Below, in pieces: positions 12,708 through 30,576 of a stretch of DNA of 34,671 nt. This DNA is from a virus. Location: the IMG/VR virus record IMGVR_UViG_3300031578_000184, positions 1 through 34,671 of that record. One strand, 5' to 3'. The notes under the pieces were generated by a model. The model worked only from the letters and a program-made list of their open reading frames with translations. It was not told the DNA's origin and did not search any database. The position numbers and the translations under genes were made by a program. Position 1 is the stretch's first letter, and each line of letters opens with the position of its first letter.

Positions 12708-13235
12708 ATGAAAATCTGTTTCACTTCAAGCCACGGTTGCGGAAAGACAACCCTATGCCAAGAGCTAACAAAACACCTTGATATACCCTACATAAAAGAA
12801 ATTGCCAGAACTGAAATAATCAGGACAGGAAAATTGCCCTATGAAATGACTAAAAAAGAAAGGTTTAAATTTCAGAAAAGATTATTTGAATTGCAACTAA
12901 TAGCCGAAAGTCAAAATCAATCTTTTATGTCAGATAGAGGTTTATTTGATATCTTAGCTTATAGTTATGATTTACCAGAATACCCGTATTTACTAGAAAT
13001 GGCTAAACAAGCTAATATAACAGGCCGTTACAGCCATATATTTTATATACCGATAGAGTTTCATTTAGAAGGTGACGCCCAGCGTTCCAGTGATATAGAT
13101 TACCAAAAAGAAATTGACAATAGGCTAGTCAATATTTTAGAAAGTTTAGATATTTGCTATTTTAAAATAACTGGAACTGTACAAGAACGAGTTGAAAAAG
13201 TTACCAGCACTTTAAAACTATTTGACCACAATTAA
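12708..13235 (+). CDS. P-loop nucleotide kinase-like protein (NadR/AAA_28 type)
   Basis: 175 residues with Walker A SHGCGKTT at 8-15 and ITGTVQERVEKV near the C-terminus, the layout of small NadR-type or phage nucleotide kinases. SDRGLFDILAYS at about 79-90 fits the DR-type motif that contacts the nucleoside in this family. Likely reaction: transfer of phosphate from ATP to a nucleoside, nucleotide or NAD precursor; substrate unclear. It ends the early operon that also holds the HD phosphohydrolase. Confidence 0.7.
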   Translation: MKICFTSSHGCGKTTLCQELTKHLDIPYIKEIARTEIIRTGKLPYEMTKKERFKFQKRLFELQLIAESQNQSFMSDRGLFDILAYSYDLPEYPYLLEMAKQANITGRYSHIFYIPIEFHLEGDAQRSSDIDYQKEIDNRLVNILESLDICYFKITGTVQERVEKVTSTLKLFDHN

Positions 13236-13250
13236 ATTATAATCAATAAT
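13222..13250 (+). promoter_or_regulatory. Promoter of the structured RNA gene
   Basis: TTGACC (13222-13227), 17-bp spacer, AATAAT (13245-13250), in the end of the kinase gene and just after it. Predicted start about 13257, three bases before the first hairpin. Confidence 0.5.
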
Positions 13251-13257
13251 AATATAT

Positions 13258-13505
13258 TTGCTACTAACGACCTGAAGTAGCTCGGCTTTGATAGTTTTAG
13301 GTGTTTAACTTAAAAGCTTAAAAATAATACCTTGCTCGTATAATCGTTGAAACTCTAGGCAAAAGTGGAGGTTATACTGGTAGAATATAAATTGCGGTTT
13401 GGTAGTTTTACGTAAACAACTACTTGTCTGTTAAATGACACTGATTTAACCAGTTTTGTAGCTTACTGCGAACGCTATATTATCACCCAGTTTGGGTGGT
13501 TTTTT
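13258..13505 (+). ncRNA. Structured non-coding RNA, about 250 nt, family unknown
   Basis: There is no frame of any length here, but ordered stems. GCTACT/AGTAGC (13260-13265 with 13276-13281) forms the 5' hairpin. GTAGTT/AACTAC (13402-13407 with 13418-13423) and GTTAAAT/ATTTAAC (in 13430-13450, extended by CTG/CAG) follow. TAGC/GCTA lies near 13459-13476. The gene ends in a terminator at 13484-13505 and a promoter lies just upstream. A free-standing RNA transcribed with the early genes is the best reading. No tRNA, tmRNA or known riboswitch signature was recognised. A long 3' UTR of the kinase operon is the alternative. Confidence 0.6.
13484..13505 (+). terminator. Rho-independent terminator
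   Basis: CACCCA (13484-13489), loop GTT, TGGGTG (13493-13498), then G and six T. It ends the early operon and the RNA gene. Confidence 0.85.
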
Positions 13506-13516
13506 GTTTTCTTTTT

Positions 13517-13771
13517 CTTTTAAATAACCATTTTATCTTTTAAATTTTTACAGTTAAGAAAAAAACTTTTATTGATTAAACAGCGGTTTACAGGCTTTCT
13601 TTTGTTTTTTTATTGTTTTAAATAGCCGTTTTTTCTTTTAAATTTTTGAGCTTAAAACAATAAGAATTCTTGCCTAGCCGTGATTGACTCACTTCGAACT
13701 TTTTAACCCAGTCGAATTCGAGGAGTTTAGGGTTTTGACCAGAAAAGGAAATTGATAGACAGTATAATTAT
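13517..13771. repeat. AT-rich gap with imperfect direct repeat
   Basis: No gene. A segment of about 36 bp at 13517-13552 recurs with a few changes at 13616-13650; both contain TTTTAAATA and CTTTTAAATTTTT. A perfect 10-bp palindrome TCGAATTCGA lies at 13712-13721 and TATAAT at 13763-13768, just before the next start codon. AT richness plus repeats directly upstream of the replication genes makes this a candidate replication origin, but no clear DnaA-box cluster was found. Confidence 0.5.
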
Positions 13772-14068
13772 ATGCAACAGCTTAACCACTGCCAACAAGT
13801 TGAAGCCCTTGAAAAGTTATTACAGGGTTTTTTAAGTGCTAGGTTTGATAATATAGCAGGACTAGATCCAAAAGTGGCTAATATGACAGCAACAGCCTTT
13901 GTAAATGAGATTGTATTGCCAAGATTAGAATTACTTAGACAAACAGGCCAAAAAATGGAAGATGGTTTAAAAATCCGCAAAACAATAATGGTTATTAAAG
14001 ATTTAGAGGATTATTATCAAAGCGAAAAAGCGAACCTAAAAGCAAGTTTGACAAAAACAAAAATATAA
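13772..14068 (+). CDS. Hypothetical protein (98 aa) before replication genes
   Basis: Predicted all-helical: two amphipathic stretches (CQQVEALEKLLQGFLSARF and NEIVLPRLELLRQTGQKM) and a basic end (ANLKASLTKTKI). No family recognised. It lies between the candidate origin region and the replication initiator gene, so a replication accessory role is possible but only by position. The promoter for the following gene sits in its last codons. Confidence 0.6.
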   Translation: MQQLNHCQQVEALEKLLQGFLSARFDNIAGLDPKVANMTATAFVNEIVLPRLELLRQTGQKMEDGLKIRKTIMVIKDLEDYYQSEKANLKASLTKTKI

Positions 14069-14076: not shown

Positions 14077-14093
14077 TAGATAGATTAGTTGTT

Positions 14094-14157
14094 TTAGTGG
14101 AGTGGGTGGCTTAGCGGTAGCCCTTTCCACTAAGGCAATTAAGCCTTAAATACCGCT
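14094..14157 (+). promoter_or_regulatory. Pseudoknot-capable leader over a start codon
   Basis: TTAGTGGA (14094-14101) pairs with TCCACTAA (14126-14133), enclosing GGCT/AGCC (14108-14111 with 14119-14122). The hairpin loop AGCGGTA (14113-14119) is complementary over 7 bp to TACCGCT (14151-14157), which directly precedes the ATG at 14158. A competing hairpin TAAGGC/GCCTTA (14131-14136 with 14143-14148) also exists. The structure could hide or expose the start codon of the replication gene; a DNA-level role as an origin dyad is the other option. Confidence 0.6.
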
Positions 14158-14973
14158 ATGTATTTTAATCACCCCTACGCTTTGCGTAACACGCCAGAGA
14201 TTTTGGAACTTAGAGCCACGCTCGGTTTTGAATCTTATTCTATTTATTTAATGGTTTTAGAAACCATAGCTGAATCGCCAGAGCATTCTATTAATGGCAA
14301 ACTTATAAATGGTTTATCAATTAGCTTTGGTTGCGAATCAGATTTTCTAAAAAAAGTTTTAACAAAAGCTACAGAATTAAAGTTATTTTTTGTAAAAGGT
14401 GATTTTATTTTCTCAAGCCACCTACAAAACCATTTTGAAAAAAGGTTAGAAATTAAAGCTTTAAGAGCTGAAGCTGGAGCAAAAGGTGGCAAAGCTAAAG
14501 CAAATGCTAAGCAAACGCTAGCAAATGCTAAGCAAAATGTAGCTAAAGAAAGTAAAGTAAAGAAAGTAAATATTAAAGATAAAATAAATAACAAAGAAAA
14601 AATAGAAACATTTTTTGAATCCGAAAATTTAAAAGAAATAGTTGAATCAAAATTAATTCCATACGAAAATCAAACTTGGTTTTCAGAACAAGCTAACTCT
14701 ACTTTAGAAATTATTAAAAATAAAATGTTAGACTACTACTTGGATAGCAAAAAAGAAATTAAAGACATGAAAGCAACTTTTACTAATTGGATTTTAAAAC
14801 TAGATAGAAAACAATTTTATAAATATCAAAACTTTAATCAAGTACAGCCAACTCAAAATAACCTTCCAGAAAAAAAAGATTTAATTTTAAATCGAATAGA
14901 CTTTGAATCAGATGAACACTTTTTAGCAATGGTTGACCATAAATCAGAATTTTACAATGTAATCCAAAAATAA
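14158..14973 (+). CDS. Replication initiator-like protein (Lin1244/Lin1753-like N-terminus)
   Basis: 271 residues. The first 100 follow the Lin1244/Lin1753-type (DUF4373) pattern of phage and plasmid replication proteins: FNHPYALRNTPEILELRATL, then GFESYSIYLMVLETIAES. Next comes a basic A/K/G-rich linker (about 100-145; EAGAKGGKAKA), then a C-terminal acidic helical domain. It probably binds the origin and helps load the DnaB-type helicase encoded 2 bp downstream. No catalytic motif, as expected. Expression may be set by the structured leader that covers its start. Confidence 0.7.
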   Translation: MYFNHPYALRNTPEILELRATLGFESYSIYLMVLETIAESPEHSINGKLINGLSISFGCESDFLKKVLTKATELKLFFVKGDFIFSSHLQNHFEKRLEIKALRAEAGAKGGKAKANAKQTLANAKQNVAKESKVKKVNIKDKINNKEKIETFFESENLKEIVESKLIPYENQTWFSEQANSTLEIIKNKMLDYYLDSKKEIKDMKATFTNWILKLDRKQFYKYQNFNQVQPTQNNLPEKKDLILNRIDFESDEHFLAMVDHKSEFYNVIQK

Positions 14974-14975
14974 AT

Positions 14976-16184
14976 ATGACTAACTTACAAAAAACAATAA
15001 TCGGGAATTTAATTTTAAGTGATGAAACCCAAAAAGAATTTTTAGGAATTTTAGATATAGAATTTTTTGATGGAGATTGTAAATCAATAATTGAAGTTTT
15101 TAAAAATGCAAAAGGCTCTGTTGTAACTACAGCTAATTTTGAAAATCAAGAGCTAAGAACTTTTTTAGTTACGTGCATGTCAACAATTAGTTTATCACAA
15201 CCTTTTGGTGAATTATTAGCATTACTCAAAGATGAGTATATAGCTAAGGAGTTCAAAAAGCTAGTAAATTTGAAAGATATAGGGGAAGCTAAGGCTAGGA
15301 TACTAGAGATAGAAGAAAAGGGCAAAATATTGGATTTAACGAAGCCAAAAAGCTTATCTGAAGTTTTATCAATGGGAATAACAGAATCAATAAACAATCC
15401 GTTTGATTTAGAAACAGTACCAAAGACTGGATTTAAAGACTTTGATTATGATTTAGGGAAAAGTGCTTTTGGGGGTTTCCTACCAGGGCAACTCGTAACT
15501 GTAGGAGCTTACAGCGGAGGGGGGAAATCTACATTTCTAATTAGTCTTTTAAAAAATATAGCCTTTGAGCATGAAACTTTGATGTTTAGCTTAGAAATGG
15601 ATAATATAACTTTATCAGCTAGAATTTTAGCCAGTTTATCAGGTGTTAATTTTAAACTTTGTTTAAATCTTGGAAATGACAAAGTCCAGCAGTTAATCCA
15701 GAAATTACATTTAGGGGAACAATTAAATCAGGGTATTTTAGATAGTGAAAAAATGAAAGTTAAAATGATAGACAACGAATTGGATTTGGGATCAATTAAA
15801 GCTACAATTAGAAAGCAAGCTAAAGAGTCTAAACTTAGATTTGTATTTATCGATTATTTACAACTTATCAGGCCAGAAAATTCTAATAAAATGAGACATC
15901 TTGAAGTAGCCGAAATTACCCGAGAATTAAAACTGTTAGCTAAAGAGCTAAAAATAACAATTATACAATTAGCACAGCTTAGCAGGGCAACTCTAACTAA
16001 AGACGAACCCCAACTAAATGACCTAAGAGAATCAGGAAGTATTGAAGCCGATAGTGATACAGTGCTTTTAATCTACCAAGACAAAAGCCAGAATAGATGG
16101 GTAAAAATAGCTAAAGATAGAACTTTTGGAAAATACCACAAAGCAAAATTAAATTATAATAACGAAACACAGTCTTATGTTTAA
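14976..16184 (+). CDS. dnaB: Replicative DNA helicase, DnaB family
   Basis: 402 residues. The N-terminal domain (about 1-110) is shorter than in bacterial DnaB. The RecA-like ATPase carries Walker A GAYSGGGKST (177-186), the motif FSLEM, Walker B LRFVFIDYLQLI, then IIQLAQLSR and LNDLRESGSIEADSD: a full set of DnaB motifs. It unwinds DNA at the phage fork as a hexamer. It follows the initiator gene at 2 bp, the common pairing of loader and helicase, and overlaps a small basic gene at 16177. Confidence 0.92.
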   Translation: MTNLQKTIIGNLILSDETQKEFLGILDIEFFDGDCKSIIEVFKNAKGSVVTTANFENQELRTFLVTCMSTISLSQPFGELLALLKDEYIAKEFKKLVNLKDIGEAKARILEIEEKGKILDLTKPKSLSEVLSMGITESINNPFDLETVPKTGFKDFDYDLGKSAFGGFLPGQLVTVGAYSGGGKSTFLISLLKNIAFEHETLMFSLEMDNITLSARILASLSGVNFKLCLNLGNDKVQQLIQKLHLGEQLNQGILDSEKMKVKMIDNELDLGSIKATIRKQAKESKLRFVFIDYLQLIRPENSNKMRHLEVAEITRELKLLAKELKITIIQLAQLSRATLTKDEPQLNDLRESGSIEADSDTVLLIYQDKSQNRWVKIAKDRTFGKYHKAKLNYNNETQSYV

Positions 16185-17068: not shown

Positions 17069-17468
17069 AACCCCACTTTTTGTAGAGTTGCCACGAAAAA
17101 CTAAAAAACCTAAAAAAGTCTGGCTAAATATGAATACTTACAGAAATTTACATAGATTTACTGAATCCGAATGTAAAAAAGAGTTTTTTAATATTATTCA
17201 AGATAAATTACCTAAAACAAAATTTGAAACAATCGAGGTTGCTTTTCAGATTTATAAATGTGCAACTAAAGCAGGGGAAATAAAGAAGCTAGATAAATCA
17301 AACGTGTATGCCGTGTTAAGTAAATATTTTTTTGACTCTTTGGTAGAAAATGGTAATTTATCTGATGATAACGACCAGATTATAAAGACAGAAACTATAC
17401 TACCAACCAAATATTTATTGTATGGATCAACCGAATATGCAGAGTTTACAATAATTGACCAAAGTTAG
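17049..17468 (+). CDS. rusA: RusA-family Holliday junction resolvase
   Basis: 139 residues, usual length for RusA. The conserved C-terminal part is present: KLDKSNV (D82), FFDSLVENGNLSDD (D96, D106, D107) and DQIIKTETI. These aspartates bind metal and cleave four-way junctions. Phages use RusA to resolve recombination intermediates before packaging. It sits downstream of helicase and nuclease genes in one operon. Confidence 0.85.
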   Translation: MGIITIKTPLFVELPRKTKKPKKVWLNMNTYRNLHRFTESECKKEFFNIIQDKLPKTKFETIEVAFQIYKCATKAGEIKKLDKSNVYAVLSKYFFDSLVENGNLSDDNDQIIKTETILPTKYLLYGSTEYAEFTIIDQS

Positions 17469-17499
17469 AAAATAGTTTAAGGTTTAAACAGTTATCTGT

Positions 17500-17537
17500 A
17501 CTCAAGACAGATATTATAGAGTGTATTTGTCTTGAGT
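17500..17537 (+). terminator. Perfect 10-bp inverted repeat after rusA
   Basis: ACTCAAGACA (17500-17509) and TGTCTTGAGT (17528-17537) with an 18-base loop. The stem is followed by TTTAGG rather than a full U-run, so it is a weak terminator, an mRNA 3'-end stabiliser or an operator. Confidence 0.55.
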
Positions 17538-17552
17538 TTAGGTAATTAATTT

Positions 17553-17750
17553 ATGATTAAGCTTAGAAAAATTAATCAGAACAGTTGGAAATATAAAGGT
17601 ATTTTTATATATTATCGCAAAGAAAAAAGTTCTATTTTTGTTTATTATATTTATAAAAACAACGAGCAAATCCTTTTAAATAAGCCATTAAAGACCAAAA
17701 ACTATTGGGAAATGTTAGACATAGTTAGTAGTTTAGCAACTATTACTTGA
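17553..17750 (+). CDS. Hypothetical protein (65 aa)
   Basis: Basic and aromatic (WKYKGIFIYYRKEKSSIFVY), mostly strand, then a short helix. Its TGA stop overlaps the -35 box TTGACA of the next promoter, an economical arrangement repeated at 21433. Not recognised. Confidence 0.6.
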   Translation: MIKLRKINQNSWKYKGIFIYYRKEKSSIFVYYIYKNNEQILLNKPLKTKNYWEMLDIVSSLATIT

Positions 17751-21198: not shown

Positions 21199-21433
21199 AC
21201 ACCATAAAACGAACAACGCCCTAACAGCCCAATTTCAAGGCTATACAGTAAAGCAAGCACTAGAAGTATTAAAACTACCTGGAAAGCTCAAATTAGGCAA
21301 TTGTATGGCTTATGGTAACTATATAAGAAGCAAGAAGCTAAAGCTTTGTTATTTAATAGACCAAGATACAAAGAATTGTTATGTAACTAGGGTTTTAGAT
21401 ATTGTTTATTCTAAGCATAAAGTAATAGCTTGA
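21191..21433 (+). CDS. Hypothetical protein (80 aa)
   Basis: Basic small protein with a helix (YTVKQALEVLKLP) and strands. Ends in TGA, which overlaps the -35 TTGACA of the next promoter, as at 17750. Last gene of the recombination block. Not recognised. Confidence 0.6.
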   Translation: MTKHHKTNNALTAQFQGYTVKQALEVLKLPGKLKLGNCMAYGNYIRSKKLKLCYLIDQDTKNCYVTRVLDIVYSKHKVIA

Positions 21434-21459
21434 CAAAATCCGTGTAACATTTTTAGATA
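21430..21459 (+). promoter_or_regulatory. Promoter of the long leader
   Basis: TTGACA (21430-21435), 18-bp spacer, TAGATA (21454-21459). The transcript would run into about 425 nt without a gene before the ATG at 21891. Confidence 0.5.
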
Positions 21460-21890
21460 CATTTAACTTTACCAATTTAAGAGGTTGATAAAGCCAAAAA
21501 GAAAACCCACCTTTTCGGGTGGGGCTTTAAGAAGTTGATAACTCAATCTTTTTAAATTTAATTCTTTTGTCAAGTTTTTTTCTTATTTCTTGATCAACTT
21601 CAATAATAAGAACGGCTTTAACTTACTACCGTTGGATAATGACAACGCTCTAGTGCTAAGATAAATTAGTAGGCCGTGAACATTTACTGCTCTTATTAGC
21701 TAACTAACCAAAAACTAATAACCAGATGACGATCCGATAGGAGGGGTGAACATAAGTAAGTCTCGTCAACTTCGCCAAATGAAAAAGCTCAAGGCTCATT
21801 CTCAGGTATAATTTCACTCCATTCTCTTAAAGTAATATTTAGGGGGATGGGGGGTGAAACAACCTTTTCAAAACTAAAACTATTCTAGGT
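21460..21890 (+). ncRNA. Long structured leader or RNA gene, no CDS
   Basis: No credible protein frame. GC content rises and stems appear. AAAGCC/GGCTTT (21490-21495 with 21523-21528) encloses CCCACC/GGTGGG. AACGG/CCGTT and CGTTG/CAACG near 21611-21647 overlap and exclude each other. TGACGA/TCGTCA (21727-21732 with 21763-21768) encloses AGGAGGGG. A G-rich stretch (GGGGGATGGGGGG) lies at about 21842-21854. Mutually exclusive stems suit a regulatory leader. Whether this is one RNA, several, or partly minus-strand is not clear. Confidence 0.5.
21492..21524 (-). terminator. Terminator, best read on minus strand
   Basis: CCCACC (21506-21511) and GGTGGG (21519-21524) with a 7-base loop. On the minus strand the hairpin is followed by TTTTCTTTTT, a good U-run; on the plus strand it is followed by GCTTTAAG, which is poor. 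It hints at a minus-strand transcript from the right, though no minus gene is evident. Confidence 0.5.
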
Positions 21891-22412: not shown

Positions 22413-22432
22413 AATAGTTTTATATTATATCA

Positions 22433-22566
22433 GGAAGCTAAAAGGTTGTAGGTTCAAATCCTACTTCCAACGTTGGAATATCCTCGGTAGTGTTAGGTAG
22501 AGGAATTAAGAGCTTAAAAGGTTGTGGTAAAACTACCAGCTGCAACCTGCTCTTAATTGGTTTTTA
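22433..22566 (+). ncRNA. tRNA-like RNA with permuted order of parts
   Basis: A canonical T-arm, GTAGG-TTCAAAT-CCTAC (22448-22464), preceded by AGGTT like a variable loop, is followed by TTCCAAC (22465-22471). GTTGGAA (22472-22478) follows at once and is its exact 7-bp complement, as a 5' acceptor strand would be. Then come TA and a D-arm-like hairpin with stem TCCTC/GAGGA, whose loop ends GGTA (22481-22504). A long hairpin closes the RNA: AATTAAGAGC/GCTCTTAATT (22504-22513 with 22549-22558) enclosing AGGTTG/CAACCT and TGGTA/TACCA, then TTTTT. No normal anticodon arm or CCA was found. Possibly a permuted or decoy tRNA; an attP-like tRNA fragment is the alternative. Confidence 0.55.
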
Positions 22567-22585
22567 GTTACAAGCTTTTAGGTTC

Positions 22586-22605
22586 TTAATAGACAAAAAT
22601 TAAAA
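22586..22605 (+). repeat. Recurring 20-bp motif, copy 3
   Basis: Same motif with one change (AAAAATTAAAA); lies between the tRNA-like RNA and the gene at 22611. Confidence 0.8.
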
Positions 22606-27282: not shown

Positions 27283-28254
27283 ATGGCTATTACAACCGAC
27301 GCCTCAATCGCACAGGCAAAAACAACCCTTTTAGCTAACAGACTTTTAAAGCCTTTAGTTTTTTCAAACTTACTTAAACAGTTTGTAAAATCAGACACAG
27401 AATTTGCAACAGACACAGGAGCATATCAAAGAGGGGCTACTCTATCTATTCCAGTTGTACCTACAATTACAACTAATATTGTAACTTCTACAGGTGGAGC
27501 AGTAACATATCCAAAACAAACTTTGACTAATGTTGCTTTAACTTTAGATTCTATCGCTTCTACACCATTTTCTTTAAATGATGCTGATGTAACTTTAGCT
27601 AATGTAAACCCTAGCAATGATATCCTAAGCAATGCAGGCGCACAACACGGTAACTCTATTGAAAGCACAATGATGTTGAACACTTTCAACGATTCAGCTA
27701 TTAATGGAAATGTTATTGGTGCAGCCGCTACTGATACAAACTACAAACTTTTGAGAACTATTTGGAAAGCTTTTTACGATGCTAAAGTTCCAGATACCCA
27801 AACTAAAGTTGTAGTTTTACCTTCAGATCAATACTTTGAACTTTTAGGAGACAACACTGTTTCTAGATTAGTAAATCCAGAAGCAAGCTCAACCCTAGCT
27901 AATGGTGCAATTTTACCAACATTGAACATGATTGTTTTACCTAGCAATGCAACTCAAGTTGGAACAGCTTATACTAACCTTGCCGCGTTAGGTGCAATCG
28001 CAACGCCAGTAGGATTTGCCTTTACAACTGACTCAATCGTTGGAGCTATCCGAGAATTACCAACGGATGGAAATGGTTTAGGTGTTAACCAAGTTATTGT
28101 AAGAAATAACGAAGTAAACCTTGCTACTAGATTGTCAATTAGCTACGATGCTAATGTTATTGGCGGTGATAAAAACTATCATATGGAAACTCTATTTGGA
28201 ACTAAAATCTACAGACCAACTACAGTATTCCCAATTCTAGGAGGTGTTGCTTAA
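27283..28254 (+). CDS. Major capsid protein
   Basis: 323 residues, beside the scaffold gene. It begins MAITTDASIAQAKTTLLANR and has the mixed T/N/A-rich composition of P22/SPP1-like HK97-fold coat proteins that use a separate scaffold rather than a cleaved delta domain. Codon choice is smoother and GC slightly higher than in neighbouring genes, as for highly expressed genes. Position is the main evidence. Confidence 0.85.
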   Translation: MAITTDASIAQAKTTLLANRLLKPLVFSNLLKQFVKSDTEFATDTGAYQRGATLSIPVVPTITTNIVTSTGGAVTYPKQTLTNVALTLDSIASTPFSLNDADVTLANVNPSNDILSNAGAQHGNSIESTMMLNTFNDSAINGNVIGAAATDTNYKLLRTIWKAFYDAKVPDTQTKVVVLPSDQYFELLGDNTVSRLVNPEASSTLANGAILPTLNMIVLPSNATQVGTAYTNLAALGAIATPVGFAFTTDSIVGAIRELPTDGNGLGVNQVIVRNNEVNLATRLSISYDANVIGGDKNYHMETLFGTKIYRPTTVFPILGGVA

Positions 28255-28278
28255 ACTTTAATCTAACTATATATTTTT

Positions 28279-28440
28279 ATGTATAAAATGATTAATCAAT
28301 TTGGTAACAAATTTGAATGTAGCCTAAAAGAAGTCAAAAGATATTTAGAAGCCTTCGCCATTTTCGAAAATGACAAAGAGGAAGCTAAATATCAAAAAGC
28401 TTTGAAAGGTGAAGTCGAAACAAAAAAAGAGAGCGAATAA
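28279..28440 (+). CDS. Small protein (53 aa) after the capsid gene
   Basis: ATG 28279, TAA 28438-28440. It begins MYKMINQFGNKFECSLKEVK, then a charged helix (FENDKEEAKYQKALKGEVET). The place after the coat gene and before a terminator is typical of small accessory head proteins. An internal ATG (codon 4) is an alternative start. Function unknown. Confidence 0.6.
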   Translation: MYKMINQFGNKFECSLKEVKRYLEAFAIFENDKEEAKYQKALKGEVETKKESE

Positions 28441-28461
28441 ATTATACCGCATCCTACTTTT

Positions 28462-28483
28462 CCACCCTCACGGGTGGTTTTTT
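28462..28483 (+). terminator. Rho-independent terminator after the capsid genes
   Basis: CCACCC (28462-28467), loop TCAC, GGGTGG (28472-28477), six T. It limits readthrough from the head genes into the connector genes. Confidence 0.9.
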
Positions 28484-29503: not shown

Positions 29504-29885
29504 TAAAAGCTTTTATACAGATATAGCTAAACTGGAAAAATGGTTTAAAAATCTAGACAAGGCCACAATATCAAGGGCGGTAAACTTTGCTTTAAGTAAA
29601 ATAATACTAGAGTTTAAAAGAGATGTTTTACCTAATACACCAAGAGACAAAGGCCAATTATTAAACTCCTGGGAGGTTTCTAAAAAAGAATTAAGTGTTG
29701 AAGCTGGTTACAACGAAATCTATGCAATGTATCAAGAAATGGGGATGAGACAAGACGGAACTCATATTATTCGGAACAGGCCAGCGGGGGGTAAAACATA
29801 TTTTATGAAAGAAACACTAGACGAGAATTTGCAAAAGTATTACAAAATATACGAAGAAGAAACTTTTAAACAATTATTCAAATGA
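29490..29885 (+). CDS. HK97 gp10-like neck/tail-completion protein
   Basis: 131 residues. It has the HK97-gp10 style: a helix (VNFALSKIILEFKRDVLPNT), then PRDKGQLLNSWEV and IYAMYQEMGM with a C-terminal charged helix. It acts at the head-tail joint. Stop TGA overlaps the next ATG (ATGA), a typical coupled junction. Confidence 0.75.
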   Translation: MFQLNKSFYTDIAKLEKWFKNLDKATISRAVNFALSKIILEFKRDVLPNTPRDKGQLLNSWEVSKKELSVEAGYNEIYAMYQEMGMRQDGTHIIRNRPAGGKTYFMKETLDENLQKYYKIYEEETFKQLFK

Positions 29886-30316
29886 CAAATTACTATTTAG
29901 ACGACCTAAGAACGATTTTAAGCCAAGATAATACTGATTTAGGGTATACAGGGCTTGACATAGATTCAATCAAGGTTGACACGTTAATAGAGCCTGAAAC
30001 AATAACAAGTCAAAACAATTTTGTCTTATTAATGTCTCAAGGAGGGACAAGTGAAAAAGTGTTTATTGAAAGCATGGATTTTGTCATTTATGTATATAAT
30101 ACAAGTCCAACTACAGCCAACGACAGAGCGAGAGCCATTTATAACTATTTACATAGATATACTGGGACACTTGGAACAGCCAACTCAATCCACTTTAGAA
30201 GGATAATTCCGAAGCAAAGCCCTATGAGATGGAACTCTACAAATAGTGCAGTCAATGTTTTTATGTTTACGATGACCGCTGAAATAAACAATGTTACAAA
30301 TTCAATACCTACATAA
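29882..30316 (+). CDS. Tail terminator protein
   Basis: 144 residues, alpha/beta, in the order stopper, gp10-like, terminator, tube, as in lambda gpU/SPP1 gp17-like systems. DRARAIYNYLHRYTGTLG is the helix often seen in these proteins. It caps the tail tube and joins it to the head. Call mainly by position. Confidence 0.7.
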   Translation: MTNYYLDDLRTILSQDNTDLGYTGLDIDSIKVDTLIEPETITSQNNFVLLMSQGGTSEKVFIESMDFVIYVYNTSPTTANDRARAIYNYLHRYTGTLGTANSIHFRRIIPKQSPMRWNSTNSAVNVFMFTMTAEINNVTNSIPT

Positions 30317-30329
30317 TTATGAAGTTAGC

Positions 30330-30377
30330 AACTAGCCTAGTCTTTAACCCCCTAGTTAGCCACTAGGCTAGTTTTTA
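30330..30377 (+). terminator. Terminator with perfect 12-bp stem
   Basis: AACTAGCCTAGT (30330-30341) and ACTAGGCTAGTT (30362-30373) pair perfectly, with a 20-base loop and then TTTTAATTTT. It separates connector genes from tail genes. Confidence 0.85.
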
Positions 30378-30399
30378 ATTTTATAATTAAAATATCTAT

Positions 30400-30576
30400 A
30401 TGTCTTTAAAAATCAAAGAAAACAGCCTAGTAACACTTTTTGACGGTTCAGTAGTACGAGTAACTAAAGTATTAGAAAATGGCGAATTTATGTGTGGAAT
30501 GACTATTTATAACGAAAGTCATCTAAAAAAAGAGGATAAAAAAGTTGACAAAAAAGTTGCAGATATTAAAAGTTAA
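30400..30576 (+). CDS. Small protein (58 aa) before the tail tube gene
   Basis: ATG 30400, TAA 30574-30576. A small beta part (MSLKIKENSLVTLFDGSVVR) then a lysine-rich tail (LKKEDKKVDKKVADIK). No family recognised. Set between a strong terminator and the tube gene; could be a minor head or tail factor. Confidence 0.55.
   Translation: MSLKIKENSLVTLFDGSVVRVTKVLENGEFMCGMTIYNESHLKKEDKKVDKKVADIKS

Follow-up and report, generated by a model that had tools for sequence, protein, structure and literature searches.

A noncoding segment closed by an intrinsic terminator ahead of phage replication genes as a possible source of a regulatory RNA

We propose that positions 13258 to 13505 of a phage genome may be copied into a loosely structured noncoding RNA of ∼225 to 265 nt, acting as a phage regulatory RNA by base-pairing, a reading that we favor tentatively and with a little less than even confidence. 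Given that the segment codes for no protein and is closed by a real terminator, its transcription into noncoding RNA is probable, and a noncoding transcript that ends at the terminator at 13482 to 13506 is likely. The transcription of this RNA, its 5′ end, any function, and its mechanism of antisense pairing are what we infer from the DNA sequence.

Genome and gene neighborhood

The window analyzed here is the whole of IMG/VR virus record IMGVR_UViG_3300031578_000184, a stretch of 34,671 bases, of which the first and last 131 are 99% identical; this terminal overlap indicates that the genome is near complete, at ∼34.5 kb. Among the genes found are those for TerL (Terminase_3), an SPP1-type portal, a capsid protein, an exonuclease, a DnaB helicase, an M23 peptidase, and a tail protein with a lectin-like domain, and with this gene content the virus is a tailed phage. 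The GC content of the genome is 32%, and inspection of the start contexts showed that the Shine-Dalgarno sequence is missing at most start codons. Compared with the proteins of annotated phages, the best matches are ∼31% identical or less. The phage collection searched contains no close member of this lineage.

The segment forms the left half of a noncoding gap of 536 bases (13236 to 13771), which lies between a thymidylate kinase-like gene and a 98-amino-acid open reading frame (ORF) preceding the genes for a Lin1244-like initiator and DnaB. The right half opens with a T-rich tract bearing two direct repeats of 73 nt. The features of this neighborhood are as follows.

12708 to 13235, plus strand: thymidylate kinase-like/AAA_28 protein, 175 amino acids (PHROG 2107, E = 1.6e-23; Pfam AAA_28, E = 2.4e-22); its stop codon opens the gap
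13222 to 13250, plus strand: promoter-like TTGACC-17-AATAAT (10/12 match), which overlaps the kinase gene at its 3′ end
13258 to 13506, plus strand: candidate noncoding RNA segment, with no ORF of at least 29 amino acids
13482 to 13506, plus strand: intrinsic terminator, ATCACCCA-GTT-TGGGTGGT TTTTTTG (−9.5 kcal/mol, pair probability ∼0.99)
13502 to 13574, no strand assigned: copy 1 of the T-rich direct repeat, 73 nt, 77% like copy 2, in the low-GC tract past the terminator
13600 to 13672, no strand assigned: copy 2 of the T-rich direct repeat
13772 to 14068, plus strand: downstream ORF of 98 amino acids without a family match
14158 to 14973, plus strand: replication initiation-like protein (Lin1244_N; Pfam PF14297, E = 3e-5; PHROG 2562, E = 2.6e-6)
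14976 to 16184, plus strand: DnaB-like replicative helicase (Pfam PF03796, E = 3.4e-51)

Since the gap adjoins the initiator and helicase genes, the segment could be a DNA element, i.e., part of a replication origin or of a regulatory region beside the initiator gene, with the T-rich repeats, which are 98 nt apart, as its easily melted part. The low GC content just downstream of the segment (0.21 to 0.23) agrees with such a role. However, the repeats lie almost entirely outside 13258 to 13505, no iterons were found inside it, and the cumulative GC skew has no turning point at the gap, and we consider this explanation quite improbable.

Absence of coding potential and of known RNA classes

The longest ORF inside the segment measures 28 amino acids and lies on the minus strand, and the six stop-masked frames of the gap gave no PHROG family at an E value of ≤0.1, so that no decayed gene was detectable. 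This agrees with a preliminary description of this DNA, which had reported no coding frame. The same description had recognized no known class of RNA and named Rfam as the place to check; Rfam 15 returned no match at the gathering score in the whole window and nothing up to an E value of 10 in 13150 to 13800. ARAGORN predicted no tRNA or tmRNA at default thresholds, with low-scoring spurious calls only at relaxed ones.

A recurring terminator far from the preceding stop codon

The strong terminator that was said to close the RNA is genuine. Its design, CCACCC..GGGTGG followed by a run of T, is shared by three terminators on the plus strand (at 13482, 28462, and 31249), and a version with a variant stem is found at 21523 on the opposite strand. 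The strongest indication that the terminator at 13482 to 13506 works is this reuse of one design in a single genome. At 28462 and 31249 the hairpin follows the stop codon after 21 and 24 nt, respectively, versus 248 nt at 13482. In a compact genome, such spacing is the main reason to suppose that the segment has been kept for a purpose, although with two comparator terminators it is an argument rather than a test.

The same spacing bears on the alternative that the segment is a nonfunctional spacer, either a long 3′ untranslated region (UTR) of the kinase operon or the unrecognizable remains of a lost gene, closed by the operon terminator. This alternative, which we rate as rather unlikely, is at odds with the compactness of the genome, with the short distances at the other two terminators, and with the stop-masked frames, which hold no trace of a gene; the evidence from folding, considered below, falls on both sides of it.

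Folding of the segment

The minimum free energy of 13250 to 13510 was −55.1 kcal/mol, compared to a mean of −54.7 kcal/mol for shuffled sequences (z = −0.09), so that the fold is as stable as those of shuffles, by a test of energy that would miss a pseudoknotted or protein-held RNA. In sliding windows of 100 nt, z stayed at ∼0 and fell to about −2 only close to the terminator. Three stretches elsewhere in the genome reached z values of −6.1 (17465 to 17560), −4.0 (14080 to 14165), and −8.6 (30300 to 30400), which shows that the test does register strong hairpins against such a sequence background. The folding energy thus lends no support to the earlier designation of the segment as a structured RNA gene, and its equality with shuffles is what a spacer would give.

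The count of perfect hairpins speaks against a spacer. The segment contains four perfect hairpins with stems of 6 bp or more, versus 0.84 expected from dinucleotide shuffles (P = 0.016); when the terminator is left out, there are three versus 0.76 (P = 0.04), and 9% of other windows of the genome hold at least three. The following elements precede the terminator.

13260 to 13281, plus strand: first hairpin, GCTACT-(AACGACCTGA)-AGTAGC, a perfect stem (pair probability ∼0.8)
13376 to 13454, plus strand: long hairpin of the minimum-energy fold, closed by ACTGGT/ACCAGT (13376 to 13381/13449 to 13454; pair probability 0.44 to 0.57)
13402 to 13423, plus strand: hairpin GTAGTT-(10 nt)-AACTAC inside the long hairpin, a perfect stem (pair probability 0.55 to 0.68)
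13430 to 13450, plus strand: perfect 7-bp inverted repeat GTTAAAT/ATTTAAC, competing with the ACTGGT/ACCAGT helix (pair probability ≤0.17)

Three elements are stable in the ensemble, namely, the first hairpin, the GTAGTT hairpin, and the terminator; the remainder is diffuse. The several perfect stems noted in the preliminary description are present, in mild excess and with the first at 13260 as stated, but the GTTAAAT/ATTTAAC stem is hardly formed in the ensemble.

Transcription start and readthrough

A promoter before 13258 is possible. The promoter-like boxes at 13222 to 13250, from which transcription had been proposed to start, match at 10 of 12 positions, and sites of this kind are no more frequent than chance, with 7 found in a 3-kb region versus 11.8 in shuffles. 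The claim that the RNA gene is free-standing depends on this promoter, and a promoter at chance level is a further point in favor of a spacer. An 11-mer, TTTGACCANAA, has exact copies at 13221 and 13734 only; with one mismatch allowed, it is no more frequent than shuffling can produce (7 of 100 shuffles have at least as many copies). Exact TTGACA boxes are found in other gaps of the genome, two of them with TACACT 17 nt on, and these are putative promoters. The Bacteroidota-type promoter (TTG..TANNTTTG), tried as a clue to the host, was not enriched.

The segment lies directly upstream of the replication module, on the same strand and with the terminator in between, an arrangement that would also suit a cis-acting leader, in which transcription begun before 13258 would end at 13500. 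Only by the action of a factor from phage or host, or of the RNA itself, would it continue into ORF 13772 and the replication genes. In favor of such a leader, ACTGGT at 13376 has two potential partners, ACCAGT at 13449 and CCAGT of the terminator arm. However, two exclusive folds of comparable stability, as expected of an attenuator or antiterminator, were not obtained; at −48.2 kcal/mol, the antiterminating fold lies 6.7 kcal/mol above the terminated one (−54.9 kcal/mol). Moreover, the downstream genes have putative start sites of their own past the terminator, namely, TTGACC followed 22 nt later by TATAAT, immediately ahead of 13772, and TTGACA at 14048. A leader function is improbable on this evidence.

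Relatives of the phage

We sought relatives in viral contigs with the 316-amino-acid protein, DnaB, the kinase, TerL, and the major capsid protein, and searched genome contigs with the capsid protein and TerL. Two contigs, L002 and L174, are the same virus (L002 is 99.98% identical) and cover it from 15985 on. Three relatives have only head and packaging genes in common with it: L091 (TerL, 55% identity; capsid protein, 76%), L171 (capsid protein, 89%), and L173 (capsid protein, 75%). The segment is covered by none of these five contigs. Distant blastn searches gave no homologous DNA in phages or plasmids, matches to the DNA pattern of the 3′ part of the RNA did not go beyond chance, and nhmmer over the fetched loci found no homologue of the segment. 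Its conservation is thus not demonstrable among the relatives found, a further point that fits a spacer.

The comparison also yielded observations on the capsid region. The capsid gene (27283 to 28254) is 75 to 89% identical in L171, L173, and L091, in contrast to just 21 to 55% for neighboring genes, which may be a sign of mosaic exchange or of strong constraint. Past this gene, we noticed an overlooked ORF of 53 amino acids at 28279 to 28440 (plus strand), where the DNA is conserved in L171 and L173. The gap at 28255 to 28460 had been considered as a second long 3′ UTR parallel to ours and was dropped because it contains this conserved reading frame.

Proposed RNA and its possible target

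Returning to the reading as a regulatory RNA, the intrinsic terminator would set the 3′ end of an RNA of ∼225 to 265 nt, which might arise either as the processed tail or readthrough product of the kinase operon transcript or by initiation at its own weak promoter. Such an RNA would be loosely structured, with a hairpin at the 5′ end, a long irregular one further on, and the terminator hairpin last. Its role would be regulatory, probably through pairing with mRNAs of the phage or the host. Besides the spacing of the terminator and the lack of a reading frame, the mild excess of perfect hairpins favors this reading, as does the GC content of the segment (∼0.33), which is close to the genome mean (0.32) and well above that of the DNA just past it. 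Against it count the fold energy, the chance-level promoter, and the lack of an Rfam match or of a homologue in the collections searched. Among 50 start regions, the best predicted antisense duplex joins 13361 to 13408 to the start codon region of ORF 18720, across the start codon itself (−31.0 kcal/mol); this ORF sits upstream of the exonuclease gene. For that single target, the duplex beats all 600 shuffled RNAs, and when all starts are counted, the family-wise P value is 0.095 against shuffles and 0.03 against other windows of the genome. As a modeled target, ORF 18720 is borderline after correction and suggestive at most.

Other structured or noncoding sites in the genome

Several other sites drew attention in the course of this work. 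At 14080 to 14165 (plus strand), an 18-bp hairpin topped by another stem (z = −4.0) ends just before the initiator start codon at 14158; AGCGGTA/TACCGCT beside this ATG could possibly pair instead, which would make the site a candidate translation switch. A nearly perfect 24-bp hairpin (z = −6.1) is found at 17490 to 17547 (plus strand), just ahead of a small ORF at 17553, and a long, near-perfect palindromic hairpin of 15 + 12 + 5 bp (z = −8.6) at 30314 to 30389 (plus strand), directly 3′ of ORF 29882 to 30316. A second large noncoding gap, of 457 bases (21434 to 21890), carries TTGACA boxes at 21430 (plus strand) and 21573 (minus strand), a minus-strand terminator at 21523 to 21506, and a GTG frame of 21 codons (21746 to 21811) behind GGAGGGG, a type of sequence missing at most starts of this genome. 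Between 22088 and 22906, a 37-nt repeat, TTGGTTATTAATAGACAAAAAGTAAAAAATAATACAA, occurs in four copies near junctions of small ORFs.

Also among small ORFs, positions 22422 to 22600 (plus strand) contain a T-arm-like hairpin (GTAGG-TTCAAAT-CCTAC), then TTCCAAC/GTTGGAA, and then a D-arm-like TCCTC..GAGGA. This order of elements is that of YrlA Y RNAs or, alternatively, of the 3′ end of a tRNA, such as attachment sites may carry. The YrlA model scored 17.5 bits there (gathering score, 69; E = 0.28 in a search of 241 bases) and was not reported for the site in a one-genome search at an E value of ≤10; weak YrlA matches also occurred in 13 of 14 control genomes. The site folds far better than shuffles (z = −4.6), with the T-arm absent from the best fold, and no TROVE/Ro60 domain was found among the proteins scanned.

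Comparison with known phage RNAs

Similar sizes have been described for phage small RNAs (sRNAs), with ∼225 nt for CfrI of cyanophage S-PM2, 220 nt for aQ of lambda, and 217 nt for IsrK of Gifsy-1 (PMC12197685). The RNA proposed here resembles them in size, in being noncoding, in its intrinsic terminator, and in its location between gene blocks, and 13258 to 13506 presents one feature expected of a phage trans-acting sRNA, a noncoding sequence closed by an intrinsic terminator. In contrast, CfrI, aQ, and IsrK have been seen as transcripts, some with mapped targets, whereas our segment is known from its sequence alone, and no family model or homologue connects it to them. Given that phage sRNAs of similar size are known, the RNA would, if confirmed, join an already known kind.

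The put RNA of HK022 is a nascent leader RNA that suppresses termination (PMC9378689). The likeness consists in a hairpin-bearing segment ahead of a terminator, near early genes; unlike put, our segment has the terminator directly after it and disfavors the antiterminating fold, in a comparison made by sequence only.

That the segment represents a novel class of phage noncoding RNA, with a structure maintained by pseudoknots or proteins and invisible to energy models, expressed early, acting on replication or recombination genes, and without an Rfam relative, strikes us as very improbable. GOLLD and ROOL occur in phage genomes, and both of these, as well as OLE, are much longer than our segment and strongly structured. 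All three are described as large ornate RNAs (PMC12286853), and the likeness is that of large noncoding RNAs; the segment differs from them in having no Rfam match and a fold energy as in shuffles.

Implications

The main lesson is that a noncoding gap, even together with a terminator, does little to establish a structured RNA gene, and the segment taken alone leaves existing knowledge unchanged. If it is transcribed, it would add one more phage noncoding RNA, from this lineage without a close member in the collection searched, and, lying ahead of the replication genes, it would be a candidate for an early regulator.
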